Shown here in pieces: positions 4,012-16,201 of a DNA stretch of 22,315 bases. The notes under the pieces are model-generated. The model was not told the DNA's origin. It did not search any database and saw only the letters and a program-made list of their open reading frames with translations. Both the position numbers and the translations under genes were made by a program. The stretch covers positions 1 through 22,315 of IMG/VR virus record IMGVR_UViG_3300037537_000017, one strand, 5' to 3'. This stretch comes from a virus. How positions within the stretch are numbered: the first letter of the stretch is position 1; the number at the start of each line of letters is the position of its first letter.

Positions 4012-5784
4012 ATGGCAATTTTTCGTTCAGACCAAGCTGTAGTAACTTTTTGTGGCGAAGCTGCATTAGGGGGGTACTCTGAAGGGGCAACAACTTGCCC
4101 AACTGCATCAGGTGCTGGAGTCCTAGCAGCGGCGGCTAATGCTGGGGATACAAGTTTTTCTAGCGGTACGGCCTTTACAGTAGGTCAATATGTAGCTATA
4201 GGAACTGTAGGCTCAGGAGCAACTCTAGAGGAAGTAGAAGTTAGGCGAGTGGTTGGGGTATTAGAGGCAGGAACGAACGATACATATTACATAGATGCTC
4301 CCCTTGGTTCCTATCATGCAAGTGCACAAACGGTAAAAACTGTTACGGCAGTTAGCGACAATGATCTCGATAAACATATCACTTACATACCCGGAGTGTA
4401 TGACACAGTAACAGTTCCAGATTTTACCCCTACCATTGAGCCTAGATACTTTCTAGGAACAGCGGCTAAACGGAATTTTACAGCCGCATACAAAGGTACT
4501 CAAGCTTATAGTGGGTCTGTGCCCAGCTTCATTCTGTTAAATGGGTGGCCTCTACGGTTCCCTATAGGTCGGATAAATACTACTATAAGTGGTGCTACAA
4601 CTACACCTTCTTCCCTATCCACAGCAGCTAAAAAAGGAGATTATATGCTAGCCCTTAACACTGGAACATCTAATGGTATAGAGCAACATGACTATATACA
4701 GATTGGTACAGGAGCTACAGCAGAGGTTTCGCGGGTAATAACTGCTGTAGCTGGGCATAAAGTAAAACTAAGTGGGCCTTTGAAATATGACCATCTAGTG
4801 TCTGGTTCTACTGTAATACCGATGACTGGTTCTAGTGGAGCGGTTAACTACTTCACTCATACTATTCATGAAGAAAACGTACTAGATAGTATTTCTATGA
4901 ATGTACATATGAGAGATAGTGCTGAAACTGCTACTAAAGATTTTGATAGAAGATTTTATGGCGGTAAAATAGGGGCCGCTACTCTTTCAGCCGAAGAAGG
5001 TGGGTTACTAGTTATGGGGTGGGATACTATACCATTCATGGGGGGAATCCATAATCAGAAACTGAATACTAATTTCTCTGATACTGAGGCTTTGCCGTTC
5101 CATTCGTATTTCCAAGCAATTGAATCTGACAATGTAGGTTCTCCAACGGGAACTGACTCCGCACTGGCATACCCACTACAAGACCCATTCTACTTCTCGC
5201 AAGGTACCGTCTCGCTTTTCGGACAAACCTTTGCTCGTGTAAGAAACTTTGCTATCAGTATAAATAACAATGTTGAGCCTAGATATTATATTGAACGTCG
5301 AGGAGACAGTAGGCAAAGAGGCCCTAATGACTTAGTGGAAATGCGTAGAGAATACACTATGACTGCTACTATCGCTTTACCAGATTCAGAACAGTCGGTA
5401 AATCTCTGGGGCGTTTCGGACTCGACAGTACCTTCCTTGTTCAAAGAATTGATGTTAGAGGGAGATTATGGACTAGCCAATGGTACTGGTTCAGGCATGA
5501 AAGGTTTTGCTATACAACTAACATTTAATAAGGGTGCTATAATGACAGGTGTTGACGGAACTGCAATTACAGGTGTTGACCATAAAATCACTATAGATAT
5601 CCCAACGGATGACGTTGTTGCTGGTATGGATGTAGCCGCAGCCACGGGACTAAATAATCAAGGAGCTTTTCTAACAGAGGCTCCGCATCCAATTGACGGA
5701 TCAAACCCATTGGAAGTATCGGCTTCATTCTTGTTTAGAAATATGGGAATAACGATTGTAGATAATCAAGGACTTTATCCCTAG
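4012..5784 (+). CDS. Major tail (tube) protein with duplicated beta domain
   Basis: This 590-residue protein is the most likely major tail protein, by position (after the terminator, directly before the tail assembly chaperone) and by sequence. Tube-like segments are FILLNGWPLRFPIG (~residues 174-187) and the late strands VEPRYYIERRGD and RREYTMTATIAL (~420-465). Two copies of one beta module are inserted, at ~36-112 and ~192-271: each has an A-G-D or K-G-D turn, a Y-(V/I)-x-I-G strand, an acidic/Arg strand and an APL- or GPL-type turn before an H-x-(S/V)-(A/S) element. A typical tube protein has 150-400 residues, so this is long. It has its own promoter at 3949-3976 and an AAGGAG 7 bases before ATG. 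A contractile sheath is a possible alternative, but no separate tube gene follows. Confidence 0.65.
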   Translation: MAIFRSDQAVVTFCGEAALGGYSEGATTCPTASGAGVLAAAANAGDTSFSSGTAFTVGQYVAIGTVGSGATLEEVEVRRVVGVLEAGTNDTYYIDAPLGSYHASAQTVKTVTAVSDNDLDKHITYIPGVYDTVTVPDFTPTIEPRYFLGTAAKRNFTAAYKGTQAYSGSVPSFILLNGWPLRFPIGRINTTISGATTTPSSLSTAAKKGDYMLALNTGTSNGIEQHDYIQIGTGATAEVSRVITAVAGHKVKLSGPLKYDHLVSGSTVIPMTGSSGAVNYFTHTIHEENVLDSISMNVHMRDSAETATKDFDRRFYGGKIGAATLSAEEGGLLVMGWDTIPFMGGIHNQKLNTNFSDTEALPFHSYFQAIESDNVGSPTGTDSALAYPLQDPFYFSQGTVSLFGQTFARVRNFAISINNNVEPRYYIERRGDSRQRGPNDLVEMRREYTMTATIALPDSEQSVNLWGVSDSTVPSLFKELMLEGDYGLANGTGSGMKGFAIQLTFNKGAIMTGVDGTAITGVDHKITIDIPTDDVVAGMDVAAATGLNNQGAFLTEAPHPIDGSNPLEVSASFLFRNMGITIVDNQGLYP

Positions 5785-5793
5785 GAGGAAAAA

Positions 5794-6180
5794 ATGACAA
5801 CAGCAAAAGGAAAGACTAGCCCAGCTAAGAAAGAGTTTGACGTAAAACAGTATATGGTGACGAATGTAATTGAAACAAAAACTATAACTATAGATGGTGC
5901 ATCGTTCGAAGTTAGAATTAAACCTTTATCATGGAGTAGAAAGAATCAGCTTGTAGCCCAATCAATGAAATTTGGTGGGGAAAAAGGGGGGATGTCCTTC
6001 GATGCTGATGGTTACGTTAAAGAATCTTTAAAAGCTATTATTGTTGATGCCCCATGGGGTAAAACAACTGATACATTCCTGATAAGTATTAATGAGAGGC
6101 TTGGTAGAGTCTTAGAAACCTTAGTCCCGAGGGCCTTTGAGGACACCGATGAAGAGGACGATGAACTAAAAAAAGAATAG
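5794..6180 (+). CDS. Tail assembly chaperone, short form (gpG-like)
   Basis: This 128-residue protein lies between the tail tube and tape measure genes, the standard place of lambda gpG-type chaperones that coat the tape measure protein and recruit tube subunits. Its start has AGGAGG 5 bases upstream, fused to the previous TAG stop. A basic N-terminus (~1-15) leads into a compact domain: TKTITIDGASFEVRIKPLSW, helix SRKNQLVAQSMKF, then LKAIIVDAPWG and a helix ending LETLVPRAF. This 'strand, loop, W-x-x-K, helix' layout is usual for this class. The C-terminus is very acidic (DTDEEDDE) and ends in the slippery codons CTA AAA AAA, just before the stop. Most ribosomes should make this short form; a minority should shift by -1 into the frame at 6174-6371 to make a 192-residue fusion. 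Confidence 0.75.
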   Translation: MTTAKGKTSPAKKEFDVKQYMVTNVIETKTITIDGASFEVRIKPLSWSRKNQLVAQSMKFGGEKGGMSFDADGYVKESLKAIIVDAPWGKTTDTFLISINERLGRVLETLVPRAFEDTDEEDDELKKE

Positions 6181-6197
6181 CCCTCTATCTGAGAGGG
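6168..6197 (+). promoter_or_regulatory. Programmed -1 ribosomal frameshift site
   Basis: The heptamer A_AAA_AAA (6168-6174) sits in the correct phase (zero-frame codons CTA AAA AAA GAA TAG). A 6-base spacer (6175-6180, which includes the zero-frame stop) is followed by a hairpin with a 6-bp stem, CCCTCT (6181-6186) with AGAGGG (6192-6197), and a 5-base loop. The loop bases TCTG (6188-6191) could also pair with CAGA (6215-6218), giving a possible small pseudoknot. The -1 frame is closed by TGA at 6162-6164, so it opens just before the heptamer. All parts match known -1 frameshift signals. Frameshifting itself is inferred. Confidence 0.8.
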
Positions 6198-6371
6198 GGC
6201 GATATGGTGACCCCCAGAGAAAGTTTAGTGTTTACCCACTATATGGTGAAGTATAATTTAATGAAATTAGGCTTTAGTTGGGCAGAAATAGATGATCTAC
6301 AACCGAGGGAGGTTGCTATGATGATGGAATTATATGGAGCAATAGTTACGAAGGAGCGAGGATTTGGCTAG
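6174..6371 (+). CDS. Tail assembly chaperone, -1 frame extension (gpT-like part of G-T fusion)
   Basis: After a -1 slip at 6168-6174, translation continues for 65 codons to TAG 6369-6371. This gives a fusion of 127 + 65 = 192 residues. The added part contains MVTPRESLVFTHYMVKYNLM and then KLGFSWAEIDDLQPREVAMM, which looks like the helical second domain of tail chaperones (a W-x-E-I-D segment followed by P-x-E-V helix). It fills what would otherwise be a 183-base gap between genes, and it runs 8 bases into the tape measure gene. An internal ATG at 6204 is preceded by a G-rich GAGGGGG stretch, so separate translation of a 55-residue protein cannot be excluded, though the frameshift signals make the fusion the better model. 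Confidence 0.75.
   Translation, partial: RIALYLRGGDMVTPRESLVFTHYMVKYNLMKLGFSWAEIDDLQPREVAMMMELYGAIVTKERGFG
6351..6356 (+). promoter_or_regulatory. Ribosome binding site for the TTG start of the tape measure gene
   Basis: AAGGAG lies 7 bases before TTG 6364. The next in-frame ATG would remove about 50 residues, including the linker, and no comparable site precedes it, so the TTG is the likely start. Confidence 0.7.
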
Positions 6372-8004
6372 TGGGTTTGATGAAGCTCAAAAATTCGTAG
6401 TTGAATATGGCGAAGCACCCGGTTCCAAAACAGGTAATGGAAGTGGAACGGGCAGCGGGGATAAAACGTCTAAAACTCTAGGTCAAAGCCTGAAGAAATT
6501 AGTTGGTATTGATCTTGGTATGGGTGCCCTCCTTAAACAATCTCAGATTTTCACAGGATACCTAGGAAATGTTTTCGCTATAGTTGGAGCCATGATTGAT
6601 ACTATACTAGCTCCCTTAGCTCCCATTGCGTTTAAAGCCCTAGCAGATTTAGGTAAAAAGATACCTATGATAGCTAAGGTGGCGGAAAAGTGGATACCAA
6701 AGATAGTTAGTTTCATAGGGTCTATGTTTAGAACGGTAGATAGAATAGGTAAATTTTTCAGTAGAGACTGGGCAAAATGGGCGGCGATATTCTTAGGAGC
6801 TTTAATTGCCATAAATCTGACGTTAAAACTGGGTAGATTAGGAGGGAGTGTTCTAGGGCTTAGATCGGGTGGTGCGGCAAGAGGTATTATCAGTACTGTC
6901 ATGGGTCGTGGAGCGACACAAGCAGCGACAGGAGCAGCGACTACAGGAGCTACCACCGCAGTTAGGGGTGCAGCAGGGGGAGGCGGGATGCTTTCAAGGT
7001 TCGCTCCGCGAGCACTTGGAACCGTTGGAAAAATTGCTGGGGGTGTCGGAGGTGGAATAATTGGTGCTGTTACAAGCTATGCTGGCGGTCGAAATAAAGG
7101 TATGTCTAAAGGAATGTCTATAGGTAGAGGTGTAACGGCGGGACTTCTAGGTGCTGGGGGAGCAGTCCTAGGGAGTGCTTTAGGCCCCCTAGGAACCGTG
7201 GCTGGGGGTGCAATGGGAGTTACAGCAGGAAACTGGCTCTTCGACAAGATGTTTGCTCCAGATCAAGGTGGTGGAAGTAGTAAAAAAGGCGGAATGGATG
7301 TAGCTGGTCAGCAGGGATTGGCTGGATATTCGGCTCCCATGTATATAGCATCGTCAGCTAAAAAATTCTCAGATCAGGTAAATGCGAGTGGGGAAATTTT
7401 AGCTGAGGCGATAATGAAAACAGTTGCTGCTGTTGATGAAACACCAAAAGTCTTTGACGAACTGGGCTACGACATATCCGTAACGGGGGATAGAATGATA
7501 GGTGGTGCGAATATAGCTATGGACAAAATGAAAGCCGGGGTAATGACGGTTATGGGAGCACTAACACCTGTGGTAGATGCCATGAAAGCTGCGATAGTTG
7601 AGAAAGTGAGGACGATGTTCATTGGAGAAGCAATAAAAAAAGACCCTACCCTAGCTTTTAGTAGAACCTCCCCCGAAGGATTCCGAACCCATGAAGTTGC
7701 TATGAAAATTCAACGAGAGCAGATTATGGATGAATTGATAGGCGGTAAGAAGACTAACGTGACAGGGGGATATTCTCTTGCGTCGAGTATGGGGTTTACA
7801 GGGACAGATTTCACAGTTTCGGGTTCAGGGAATGAGATGATTATGAGGGAAGCGTTCAATGAGGTGGAGGGCATACCGGGTAAAGAAGTTAAGATTCACA
7901 TCACCTATGGTGGACATGACGGGACACAACAAATTATTCAGTATGAACAGAATGGTAAACAAGTTTTCGTAAAAATGGAAGAAGATTACTCTACTTTTCC
8001 GTAG
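6364..8004 (+). CDS. Tape measure protein
   Basis: This 546-residue protein directly follows the tail chaperone frames and precedes the tail tip genes, the fixed place of the tape measure. It starts at TTG with AAGGAG upstream. After a Gly/Ser/Lys linker (~20-40) come hydrophobic helices near residues 65-95 and 135-165 (AIFLGALIAINLTLKLGRLG), then a long Gly/Ala-rich hydrophobic region (~215-295, with GGVGGGIIGAVTSYAGG and GAGGAVLGSALGPLGTVAGG) of the type thought to enter the host membrane. Amphipathic helices follow (~330-460), and the C-terminus is beta-like (EVKIHITYGG). No peptidase or muramidase motif is visible. By the ~0.15 nm per residue rule for tape measures, this suggests a tail of roughly 80 nm. 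The shift of the chaperone frame ends 8 bases inside it, coupling the two. Confidence 0.75.
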   Translation: MASGFDEAQKFVVEYGEAPGSKTGNGSGTGSGDKTSKTLGQSLKKLVGIDLGMGALLKQSQIFTGYLGNVFAIVGAMIDTILAPLAPIAFKALADLGKKIPMIAKVAEKWIPKIVSFIGSMFRTVDRIGKFFSRDWAKWAAIFLGALIAINLTLKLGRLGGSVLGLRSGGAARGIISTVMGRGATQAATGAATTGATTAVRGAAGGGGMLSRFAPRALGTVGKIAGGVGGGIIGAVTSYAGGRNKGMSKGMSIGRGVTAGLLGAGGAVLGSALGPLGTVAGGAMGVTAGNWLFDKMFAPDQGGGSSKKGGMDVAGQQGLAGYSAPMYIASSAKKFSDQVNASGEILAEAIMKTVAAVDETPKVFDELGYDISVTGDRMIGGANIAMDKMKAGVMTVMGALTPVVDAMKAAIVEKVRTMFIGEAIKKDPTLAFSRTSPEGFRTHEVAMKIQREQIMDELIGGKKTNVTGGYSLASSMGFTGTDFTVSGSGNEMIMREAFNEVEGIPGKEVKIHITYGGHDGTQQIIQYEQNGKQVFVKMEEDYSTFP

Positions 8005-12962: not shown

Positions 12963-15083
12963 ATGGCAAATGATCATAATACTGTAACATGGTCTGGGCA
13001 TACGCTAACTGCTAGTGACGGTAACGATTATTATATAGTTTCCGGTACTACGACAGATGATTATCCCCTTCGTATGACAGCCGGTGTTCTATACTACATT
13101 TATTGGGATGAAACGTCCCCGTATAGATATAGCACTATTATAGCATCTGGTTGGGCTAGTGGAACCCCGGCAGGAAAGCATATAATTTCTGAAGTCACAG
13201 GGCAAGTATTTGCATCCCATCCCGGTGTAGTCACTGTCGCTAATATCGAATATAAGACTGATGTTCCTGCTACTACAGGGGTAAATATAACTACAATAGC
13301 AAACCAAGATTCACTTACGGCTGAAACTATATCTAATATAGGAACTACTGCTACCGCGGGTACGCGACTTAAAATGAATACCCCCGGTATAAATGAAAAC
13401 CTTGGTGCTGATGCAGGGTCGTCGGGGACTGACGCTGAACGACACTGGATTAGAGGGTATACCACTAGTAGTTCCTCAGATACCGGAGGCAGGTGGTTAG
13501 ATATAGATGGTTATGCAAAAGCTATTACTATTAGAGATGGAGCAGCAACAGACAAGCTACTAGGAAAATTTGATGAGACCGGGATTTCTTTTTATGATGG
13601 TTCTTCTGACAATAGTAATAATGGTAATATTTTATCTGGATTCAATGCGACTGGGATGAAATTTTATAGGGGTACGCAAAATGCAGCGTCTAATGCGACT
13701 ACAATATCTCATTATGCTGGGACTCAAATTAAGTATTTTAATCAGAATGGTTTTGGTGATACTAATCTACGTATGATGATAGATTCCGCAGCTACAACCG
13801 GGTACGACGGGTCTCTTGGTGAGGGTGTAACATTCTATAATGATACTGGGTATATCGTGCTGTCTATAGATGCAAATGGTGTAACCTTCTTCAATGGGAC
13901 TATTAGCGGTACCCAAAATGATGATATTGTATCTAAGTGGACTGCCACGGAGTTACTGTTTTTTACGGAAGATGGGTCTGATACTGAAGACCGGAAAGTA
14001 CGGATTGGTATGGGAGCTACTGCTGGAATTACACTTTTTGGGACGGTGGCGGGAACCGAGACTCCAACCTCCACCTTCCTGCAATTCCAGTCTGCTCCAG
14101 CCGGGAGTGAGAATACACTAGGTCTGTGGTCTGTAAAAGCATATCAGGGTCTTTGGAGACATAACACTGTTATAGATGATTATTTGTTATACGTTCCGAA
14201 ATCTGATGTTTATATTATTAGCAATAATCTTGACGGCACAGAATTCGGAGGGGGAAGAATAAGATTAGAAGCTTCGTCTGGTCTTGGACACAACCACAAT
14301 GGATGGGCTGTACACTCCTCCAGTGCTGCTTACTCAGCCCCTGCTACAGAAAAACATTATAATTTTTTCTATCCGTATAATCACGAAGCTGACCTCTTTC
14401 CTAATGGTGATACAGTAGGCGAACCATATAATTATATAGGTTATTATAATCCAGATTTACGAGCGGCATCGGGTACCGTTGGACTAGCCGCATCAATTAC
14501 TGCTATAGCTTGTTATTATTTTAATGGTGGCTATGGGTCTGCTCTTTACCCGTCCCATACATTTACTTATGATCCTAATACTGGTATGTATAGGGCTGGT
14601 AGTGATATTATAGGTTTTTCCGCAGGGGGGACAGGAAGGCTTGCTGTAAGTACTACCGCTGTTTATCCTATTTCAGATGCTTATATGACTCTAGGGCTGG
14701 GTGGAGGATCGGCATATAATAGGTTTCGTGACGCTTACATACAAATATCTACTACAACTTCGGGAACTAATGTAGTAGTTAGTGCGACTGGGCAGCTTAT
14801 AAGGGATTCAAGTTCTATACGGTATAAAAATAATGTAAAATCGTTAGATTTGGATATCTCAAAGTTATCTAAACTAAGACCCGTATCCTTTAACTATAAA
14901 TCTGATAATGCTTCTAACATAGGTTTAATTGCTGAAGAAGTGGATGAGGTTTTACCGGAACTGATTAATTATAACGAAGATGGTCAACCAGACTCTATAA
15001 GATTTAACGGTTTAACTGTAATGTTGTTAGAAAAAGTAAGAGAATTAGATAGTGAGATACAGAAATTGAAGGAGAAGAATTAA
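12963..15083 (+). CDS. Tail fibre with C-terminal S74 self-cleaving chaperone
   Basis: This 706-residue protein has an N-terminal attachment region (~1-120), a shaft of ~24-residue beta repeats (~200-360), then a head region with the well-known YDPNTGMYRAGSDIIGFSAG pattern (~537-556) and AYMTLGLGGG...YNRFRDAYIQ. The C-terminal ~90 residues are an S74-type intramolecular chaperone: S-S-I-R-Y-K starting at Ser617, with candidate catalytic Ser617 and Lys622, the segment IGLIAEEVDEVLPEL, and a final coiled coil (LLEKVRELDSEIQKL). In known members this domain drives trimer folding and then cuts itself off; here cleavage before Ser617 would leave a 616-residue fibre. It is probably the receptor-binding fibre. 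AGGAG overlaps the previous stop, 5 bases before ATG. Confidence 0.85.
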   Translation: MANDHNTVTWSGHTLTASDGNDYYIVSGTTTDDYPLRMTAGVLYYIYWDETSPYRYSTIIASGWASGTPAGKHIISEVTGQVFASHPGVVTVANIEYKTDVPATTGVNITTIANQDSLTAETISNIGTTATAGTRLKMNTPGINENLGADAGSSGTDAERHWIRGYTTSSSSDTGGRWLDIDGYAKAITIRDGAATDKLLGKFDETGISFYDGSSDNSNNGNILSGFNATGMKFYRGTQNAASNATTISHYAGTQIKYFNQNGFGDTNLRMMIDSAATTGYDGSLGEGVTFYNDTGYIVLSIDANGVTFFNGTISGTQNDDIVSKWTATELLFFTEDGSDTEDRKVRIGMGATAGITLFGTVAGTETPTSTFLQFQSAPAGSENTLGLWSVKAYQGLWRHNTVIDDYLLYVPKSDVYIISNNLDGTEFGGGRIRLEASSGLGHNHNGWAVHSSSAAYSAPATEKHYNFFYPYNHEADLFPNGDTVGEPYNYIGYYNPDLRAASGTVGLAASITAIACYYFNGGYGSALYPSHTFTYDPNTGMYRAGSDIIGFSAGGTGRLAVSTTAVYPISDAYMTLGLGGGSAYNRFRDAYIQISTTTSGTNVVVSATGQLIRDSSSIRYKNNVKSLDLDISKLSKLRPVSFNYKSDNASNIGLIAEEVDEVLPELINYNEDGQPDSIRFNGLTVMLLEKVRELDSEIQKLKEKN
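13563..14037 (+). repeat. ~24-residue protein repeats in the fibre shaft
   Basis: A unit of the form G-(K/G/S)-F-(D/N)-x-T-G-(I/M)-x-F-Y recurs: KFDETGISFYDG (~202), GFNATGMKFYRG (~226), HYAGTQIKYFN (~250), EGVTFYN (~287), NGVTFFNG (~305), KWTATELLFF (~325) and AGITLFG (~354). Key aromatic positions are residues 210, 234, 258, 291, 309, 333 and 358, so spacing is 24 or 25 in four of six steps. Such repeats usually build a trimeric beta shaft. Confidence 0.65.
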
Positions 15084-15271: not shown

Positions 15272-15663
15272 TGAAATTTAAAAATAGGGTAGTAAGGCTC
15301 CGTAAGAAATACCCCTTCATGCGAGTCTCCGAAATAGCTGCCGAGCTAGGAGCTACCAAGCAGAGAGTATGGGCTATTCTGAACCGTAGAGGGCTGGATA
15401 CAAATCCCCCTAGGTTGCACCCTGTCTTATACTGCGAAGTATGTAACACAGCCATCCTGAACAGGACTAAAAAGCGACCTATCTGCTCTAAAGAATGCTC
15501 AGAGAAGAATAGACGGATAAAAATATCCTGTGACTATTGCACTTCCACCATTTATAGGTTAAAATCAGAAGTACGCCGTGCCCACGAATTAAAATATCAA
15601 CACGCGTTCTGTAACAATAAATGTTACAACAAGTATAAGAAAGAACAATATATTGAAAATTGA
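15271..15663 (+). CDS. Helix-turn-helix protein with two Cys4 zinc fingers
   Basis: This 130-residue protein starts at GTG 15271, which overlaps the previous stop (TAGTG). A TTG 48 bases further upstream is in frame but would overlap the previous gene by 49 bases. After a very basic N-terminus, residues ~18-40 form a helix-turn-helix (MRVSEIAAELGATKQRVWAI), similar to sigma region 4-type or winged repressor helices. Two zinc-ribbon-like clusters follow: Cys55, Cys58, Cys72, Cys76 and Cys87, Cys90, Cys114, Cys118, each C-x2-C plus C-x3-C. This combination suggests a DNA-binding regulator. A hand count of 15301-15600 gives ~44% GC against ~34% in the next gene. Its neighbour is a sigma-like factor, so a joint role in transcription control is likely. 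An HNH-type or recombination-linked zinc protein is an alternative, though no HNH motif is visible. Confidence 0.65.
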   Translation: MKFKNRVVRLRKKYPFMRVSEIAAELGATKQRVWAILNRRGLDTNPPRLHPVLYCEVCNTAILNRTKKRPICSKECSEKNRRIKISCDYCTSTIYRLKSEVRRAHELKYQHAFCNNKCYNKYKKEQYIEN

Positions 15664-16201
15664 TGATGCTTTAATAAAACAATGGGAACCTAAGATAACT
15701 AGAATGATATCGACTTATAACATTGATGGGCTACACAGAGATGATTTAGCGCAAGAACTTCGGATTTGCATTTTGAAAGCAGCTAAACGATATGATCCTG
15801 ACAGAAATGTATTGTTCCATACTTATTTACATACAACTATGGTGAATACTATTCGTACTCTAGCAGCGAAAGCCAAGCGAAATATAAATAATTCAGCATC
15901 TTATCTAGGAGAGACGTTTTTTAGTAATACTTTAGATGATGATACTTCTAATCAAGCGTTGACGAGAGACCTATTTTTACAAGACCCAAAAGATTGGTTG
16001 AATGTAGTAGAAATAAATAATTTATTAGAATCTTTAAATCTTACTAAACCAGAATTAGTCTTTCTATCTTTACGCCAAGCAGGGCATTCTTTAAAAGAGA
16101 TACATCAAAAATTTGAGGAAACCTTTCCAGATAATTCATTAGCCTCAGTGAGGGAACATGTTAAGCAAAAGTTCCTTGGGAATAAACTCCCAAACCTTTA
16201 A
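15653..16201 (+). CDS. Phage RNA polymerase sigma-70-like factor
   Basis: This 182-residue protein has a clear sigma region 2: DDLAQELRICILKAAKRYDP (~30-49), then an FHTYLHTTMVNTIRTL helix (~55-71), matching the D-L-x-Q-E, 'A-x-x-(R/K)-(Y/F)-D-P' and 'F-x-x-Y' landmarks that contact core RNA polymerase and the -10 element. Near ~125-175 a helix-turn-helix (VFLSLRQAGHSLKEIHQKFE) is the likely region 4. The size fits small alternative or phage-encoded sigma factors. The TTG start overlaps the previous gene by 11 bases and has only a weak AAGAAAG upstream, suggesting translational coupling; the first in-frame ATG (15704) would cut off 17 residues. It probably redirects host RNA polymerase to phage promoters. 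Which promoters it uses is not shown by the sequence. Confidence 0.75.
   Translation: MKIDDALIKQWEPKITRMISTYNIDGLHRDDLAQELRICILKAAKRYDPDRNVLFHTYLHTTMVNTIRTLAAKAKRNINNSASYLGETFFSNTLDDDTSNQALTRDLFLQDPKDWLNVVEINNLLESLNLTKPELVFLSLRQAGHSLKEIHQKFEETFPDNSLASVREHVKQKFLGNKLPNL

Follow-up and report, generated by a model that had tools for sequence, protein, structure and literature searches.

Predicted programmed −1 frameshifting of a tail assembly chaperone gene in an uncultured marine tailed phage, and downstream RNA stems in its relatives

The production of two forms of a phage tail protein by ribosomes that slip back one base is a well-known device. The lambda gpG/gpGT pair exemplifies a frameshift that is conserved among the tail genes of long-tailed dsDNA phages (Xu et al. 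2004, as described in PMC5009743). Reviews list −1 frameshifting for lambda-like phages generally and for the haloviruses HVTV-1, HVTV-2 and HCTV-5, with HCTV-1 and HCTV-2 also among the viruses for which it is reported (PMC5009743; PMC8211752). Outside tail genes, IS911 carries a frameshift stimulator in the form of a three-way junction (PMC5009743).

The locus described here lies in a 22,315-nucleotide stretch of viral DNA (IMG/VR record IMGVR_UViG_3300037537_000017, positions 1 to 22,315; hereafter the window). It resembles lambda gpG/gpGT in having two frames that overlap immediately before the tape measure position, with a predicted −1 shift close to the end of the first of them, and in the small second domain and the short and fused forms that would result. 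It differs in that Pfam showed no sequence relation to lambda, in its heptamer A_AAA_AAA and in the downstream stem found in its family. The nearest annotated proteins by tblastn are the tail assembly chaperones of HVTV-1, HVTV-2 and HCTV-5 (23% identity, E 2e-3), and the closest annotated relatives, HVTV-1 genes 129/130 and HCTV-5 genes 128/129, are very divergent. In HVTV-1 the chaperone is annotated as a joined CDS, located after the tail tube and before the tape measure as in the window, although its in-phase heptamer is G_GGA_AAG rather than A_AAA_AAA. The hosts of haloviruses are archaea, whereas the window encodes a bacterial-type sigma factor. The frameshift system is known in kind; the window chaperone is a new member, and the detail of the downstream stem may be new.

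We interpret the locus as a tail assembly chaperone gene of a tailed phage that undergoes programmed −1 frameshifting, with a 192-residue fusion protein as the predicted product (probability about 0.95). The protein-coding features and the slip site are as follows.

4012..5784, + strand: tail tube protein, upstream of ORF1 (Pfam Phage_tube_2, E=6.7e-7; halovirus tail tube by tblastn).
5794..6180, + strand: ORF1, short (G-like) form of the tail assembly chaperone, 128 aa, stop TAG 6178-6180 (PHROG matches; homologues in 93 viral contigs).
6168..6174, + strand: putative slippery heptamer A_AAA_AAA, in phase with ORF1 (sequence; conserved in phase in 126 loci; codon-choice test).
6174..6371, + strand: −1 frame extension (T-like domain), 65 codons, stop TAG 6369-6371 (identity with the nearest relative; helical AlphaFold2 model).
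6364..8004, + strand: protein in the tape measure position, 546 aa, TTG start (position, length; gene order as in HVTV-1).

The 3' end of ORF1 reads GAT GAA CTA AAA AAA GAA TAG, the zero-frame codons within the heptamer being AAA 6169-6171 and AAA 6172-6174. In the −1 frame, TGA 6162-6164 is the last stop before the heptamer, and reading is open from 6165 to TAG 6369-6371, giving a fusion length of 127 + 65 = 192 residues. A sequence-only reading had proposed this arrangement, and direct reading confirms its letters and coordinates for the heptamer in correct phase, for the upstream TGA and for the 65 codons open to 6371. It had also pictured the extension as hidden in the only gap of about 180 bases and as reaching the start of the tape measure. 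Positions 6181-6363 (183 nt) are indeed the largest intergenic gap in the window, the second largest being 58 nt, and the TTG at 6364 overlaps the end of the extension by 8 nt.

In the mechanism that we propose, ORF1 would be the short form of the chaperone, and a minority of ribosomes on CTA AAA AAA would move back by one base at A_AAA_AAA (6168-6174). Both tRNA-Lys would pair anew with AAA, and reading would resume as AGA ATA GCC and continue until the stop at 6369-6371. On the model of lambda gpG/gpGT, labour would be divided such that the domain common to both forms binds the tape measure while the extension recruits tail tube subunits. The ratio of short form to fusion would be set by the slip rate, which is probably raised by a hairpin 5-6 nt downstream.

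The chaperone locus sits between the tail tube gene and the tape measure position. Searches of the 6364..8004 protein against PHROG and Pfam families gave no significant match, and we infer that it is the tape measure from its position, length and HVTV-1-like gene order. It is short (546 aa) and glycine/alanine-rich in the middle, and it begins at a TTG within the final codons of the extension.

No relative was found when viral contigs were scanned with the ORF1, tape measure or 1286-aa protein of the window, each used alone. The family was entered through the tube protein, which led to one relative, and through a two-member tube profile, which led to the family; profiles of the first chaperone domain then gave 47 and 80 loci in IMG/VR viral contigs. 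The patterns searched for fall in the LSW..NQ, F..GYV and PWG.T motifs and not near the heptamer, which was therefore not selected for by the search. The resulting set comprises 93 distinct related contigs, corresponding to 126 loci when duplicates and the window are included, and to 66 distinct sequences (<90% identity), again including the window. Every one of the 93 related contigs carries an X_XXY_YYZ heptamer in phase within the ORF1/−1 overlap (126/126 loci with the window), and every one has an open −1 extension reaching 59-88 codons past the ORF1 stop. Relatives without the heptamer, or with the second frame as an independent gene, were looked for as evidence against the frameshift; among the 93 contigs there is none of the former and no clearly independent case of the latter.

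These relatives bear on whether the open −1 frame and the heptamer could be accidental, ORF1 alone being the chaperone. The run AAAAAAA is not rare in this AT-rich DNA (2 seen against 6.4 expected, both strands scanned), and as it is not improbable on its own, the weight is carried by phase, position and conservation. Likewise, a −1 frame of comparable open length arises in 17/2000 mononucleotide shuffles (~0.9%). However, both features are kept in 93/93 relatives and the extension is conserved as protein; conservation refutes coincidence, to which we give practically no weight. At its core the sequence-only reading, which placed the extension of a programmed −1 frameshift in the gap, is strongly supported by the 93 related contigs.

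Where several heptamers occur in one overlap, the last of type AAAAAA, TTTAAA or TTTTTT was taken. Among the 66 distinct sequences, A_AAA_AAA is found in 61, A_AAA_AAC in one, T_TTA_AAA in two and T_TTT_TTC in two. In the two most divergent members (L053 4267-4273 and L054 3813-3819), T_TTT_TTC lies slightly upstream of the A_AAA_AAA site of the others. Elsewhere in ORF1 any X_XXY_YYZ heptamer occurs at just 37 of 3951 codon positions. All 62 A-type members have a final A in the codon preceding the slip codons, and the slip codons themselves are AAA AAA (AAA AAC in one). Given the amino acids, the mean chance of A|AAA|AAA is 0.25 per A-type member, these being related rather than independent sequences, such that the product is not a probability. 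At other Lys-Lys pairs in ORF1, A_AAA_AAA is found in 0/28 cases, and AAG makes up 26% of ORF1 Lys codons. The heptamer class is clearly kept in the family while its letters change.

The same heptamers bear on whether it is ribosomes or RNA polymerase that would slip. A runs can make RNA polymerase slip, and if this happened at the A7 run, mRNAs with one base more or fewer would yield the fusion; some relatives (e.g. L005, L011) even have nine A's. However, members with A_AAA_AAC, T_TTA_AAA or T_TTT_TTC lack a run of seven and yet stay within the ribosomal heptamer class, the phase of the heptamer relative to the codons is fixed in all members, and a stem a few nucleotides downstream fits ribosomal stimulation. 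Transcriptional slippage therefore seems highly improbable, and it is above all the heptamers without a run that favour ribosomal frameshifting.

The extension might instead be a gene of its own, for which one further feature is relevant.

6204..6206, + strand: in-frame ATG inside the extension, behind a Shine-Dalgarno-like GAGGGGG run, a possible internal start (sequence; not conserved).

A separate 55-codon gene could begin at this ATG (or at GTG 6207), perhaps translationally coupled to ORF1, since the ATG is in the extension frame and the purine-rich run lies 4 nt upstream of it. Yet the corresponding codon is CTA in the nearest relative, L003, which has no ATG, GTG or TTG until deep in the domain, and 26 of the 66 sequences lack any of these codons in the first 20 codons after the heptamer. 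Moreover, conservation of the extension sets in before 6204, immediately at the heptamer: counted from the codon next to the heptamer onwards, the extension is 52% identical to that of L003, with the motif KKR[IV]..[YF]LRGG in this nearest pair. We therefore consider a separate gene very unlikely, and the extension is better read as a frameshift product. In halovirus HHTV-2 (L056 3546-4489), the interval from tail tube to tape measure holds two ORFs, annotated as distinct genes (47 and 48) with 8 nt between them. It is possible that these are a chaperone pair made without a frameshift.

Protein comparisons identify the family. As the sequence-only reading suggested doing, the 192-residue fusion was searched against tail chaperone families, and it matches three PHROG tail assembly chaperone families (phrog_35486, phrog_32593 and phrog_25860; E 4e-6 to 1.6e-5) significantly, with modest scores of 25-28 bits. 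ORF1 alone matches phrog_32593 (E=3.1e-6) and phrog_35486 (E=7.3e-6), while phrog_25860 is matched better by the fusion (1.6e-5) than by ORF1 (1.1e-3). The extension alone gave no match in the PHROG profile search of chaperone families, and neither the fusion nor ORF1 matched Pfam. A sequence search of solved structures returned chance matches only (best E 0.51), and the relatives' chaperones gave no match to named phages.

The two halves of the fusion were modelled apart with AlphaFold2. The first domain is predicted to have a mixed fold (pLDDT 81.8), and its top match in a fold search is a weak one to YqbN (3klu; probability 0.51, E 0.39), which we take to be a tail chaperone of a Bacillus prophage. 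The extension is modelled as four helices (pLDDT 87.6), in agreement with the earlier description of it as resembling the helical second domain of tail chaperones; a fold search of this model against solved structures found no match.

Downstream of the heptamer, two RNA pairings were considered in the window.

6180..6200, + strand: candidate stimulatory hairpin, best register 6180-6186/6194-6200, 7 bp, −10.2 kcal/mol, spacer 5 nt.
6195..6215, + strand: competing helix GGGGG 6195-6199/CCCCC 6211-6215, up to −9.1 kcal/mol (minimum-free-energy fold).

The 6-bp hairpin with a 6-base spacer proposed from the sequence does exist (6181-6186/6192-6197, −8.0 kcal/mol, 6 nt after the heptamer), but the 7-bp register has the lower energy, and in the window neither stands out clearly from chance. 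For the 7-bp register, 9/100 synonymous shuffles do as well, and the local 63-nt stretch is ordinary by dinucleotide shuffling (z = −0.65). The G's of the hairpin can pair in two ways, and the minimum-energy fold prefers the GGGGG/CCCCC helix. In the nearest relative (L003/L009, one contig), a 9-bp hairpin of −13.3 kcal/mol is found at the same place, and 0/100 synonymous shuffles reach it. The window's own hairpin is thus likely by positional homology with L003 rather than by proof from the window sequence. The letters of a pseudoknot between TCTG 6188-6191 and CAGA 6215-6218, which had been put forward as possible, are present, but we set it aside as unsupported, as its 3' partner overlaps, and so competes with, the CCCCC helix, and its loop is not kept in L003. 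No conserved 5' Shine-Dalgarno stimulator was seen by eye.

Across the family, the best partner of a 5' arm starting 3 nt after the heptamer was sought out to about 170 nt and compared with synonymous shuffles. Over the 66 sequences the best-partner pairing has a mean z of −1.57, and in 33 sequences the mean energies of near and far pairing each beat 200/200 shuffled means. A downstream stem in the family is therefore under selection at the RNA level. RNAalifold on 35 codon-aligned sequences gave no single consensus structure, and near and far partners were accordingly tested apart. About 27 members have a near partner, starting 26-47 nt after the heptamer. In about 14 members the partner lies ~100 nt (92-102 nt) away inside the extension, as in L020, where AUGGCUUUCUGG pairs with CUGGGAAGCCAU. 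Far stems of 9-12 bp are seen in L020, L029, L030, L032, L036, L044, L047, L050, L064, L066, L093, L123, L124 and L128. Both near and far stems show compensatory changes. In the far stem (A8), 92.9% of cells are paired against 34-57% when slid, and 2 pairs have changed on both sides; the corresponding values for one near subgroup (A9) are 94.2% against 34-65%, with 3 such pairs. At the far Ala codon, GCC is used by 13/13 far-partner members and by 1/14 others with Ala, a contrast that is partly circular in that the groups were defined by pairing, whereas the shuffles over all sequences are not circular.

The 5' arm of the stimulator stem could have switched partners in evolution between a near one (~25-45 nt) and a far one (~100 nt), with the window and its nearest relative having a third, compact form; we hold this scenario at even odds. 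The far-partner members, with room between the arms, are comparable to IS911 in the elaborate stem structure just 3' of the −1 site, but IS911 is another gene with no homology, and the far-partner stem is here a prediction, and one absent from the window. The literature searched yielded no stimulator in which a far-partner stem directly follows the frameshift site of a tail gene. The near and far stems, found in the relatives and not in the window, are the one aspect that specialists may find surprising. They make it possible to test how the architecture of a stimulator evolves under retention of the protein that its bases also encode, and the 66 sequences, divergent but alike in frame layout, supply a set of natural frameshift sites. 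With the extension, the gene map of an uncultured phage group also becomes complete, as ordinary gene callers would miss it in all these contigs.

Two scans of genome contigs found no relative, and hence no host or provirus link. Two other gene products of the window are of note in this regard or as side observations.

15653-16201: RNA polymerase sigma-factor-like protein (phrog_351, E 5.5e-10).
12963-15083: protein whose C-terminal ~100 residues match the ends of several tail fibre/baseplate proteins (phrog_18186 and others).

The bacterial type of the sigma factor suggests a bacterial host for the window virus, despite the halovirus affinity of the nearest annotated chaperones. The C-terminus of the 12963-15083 product presumably resembles a self-cleaving S74-type chaperone domain.
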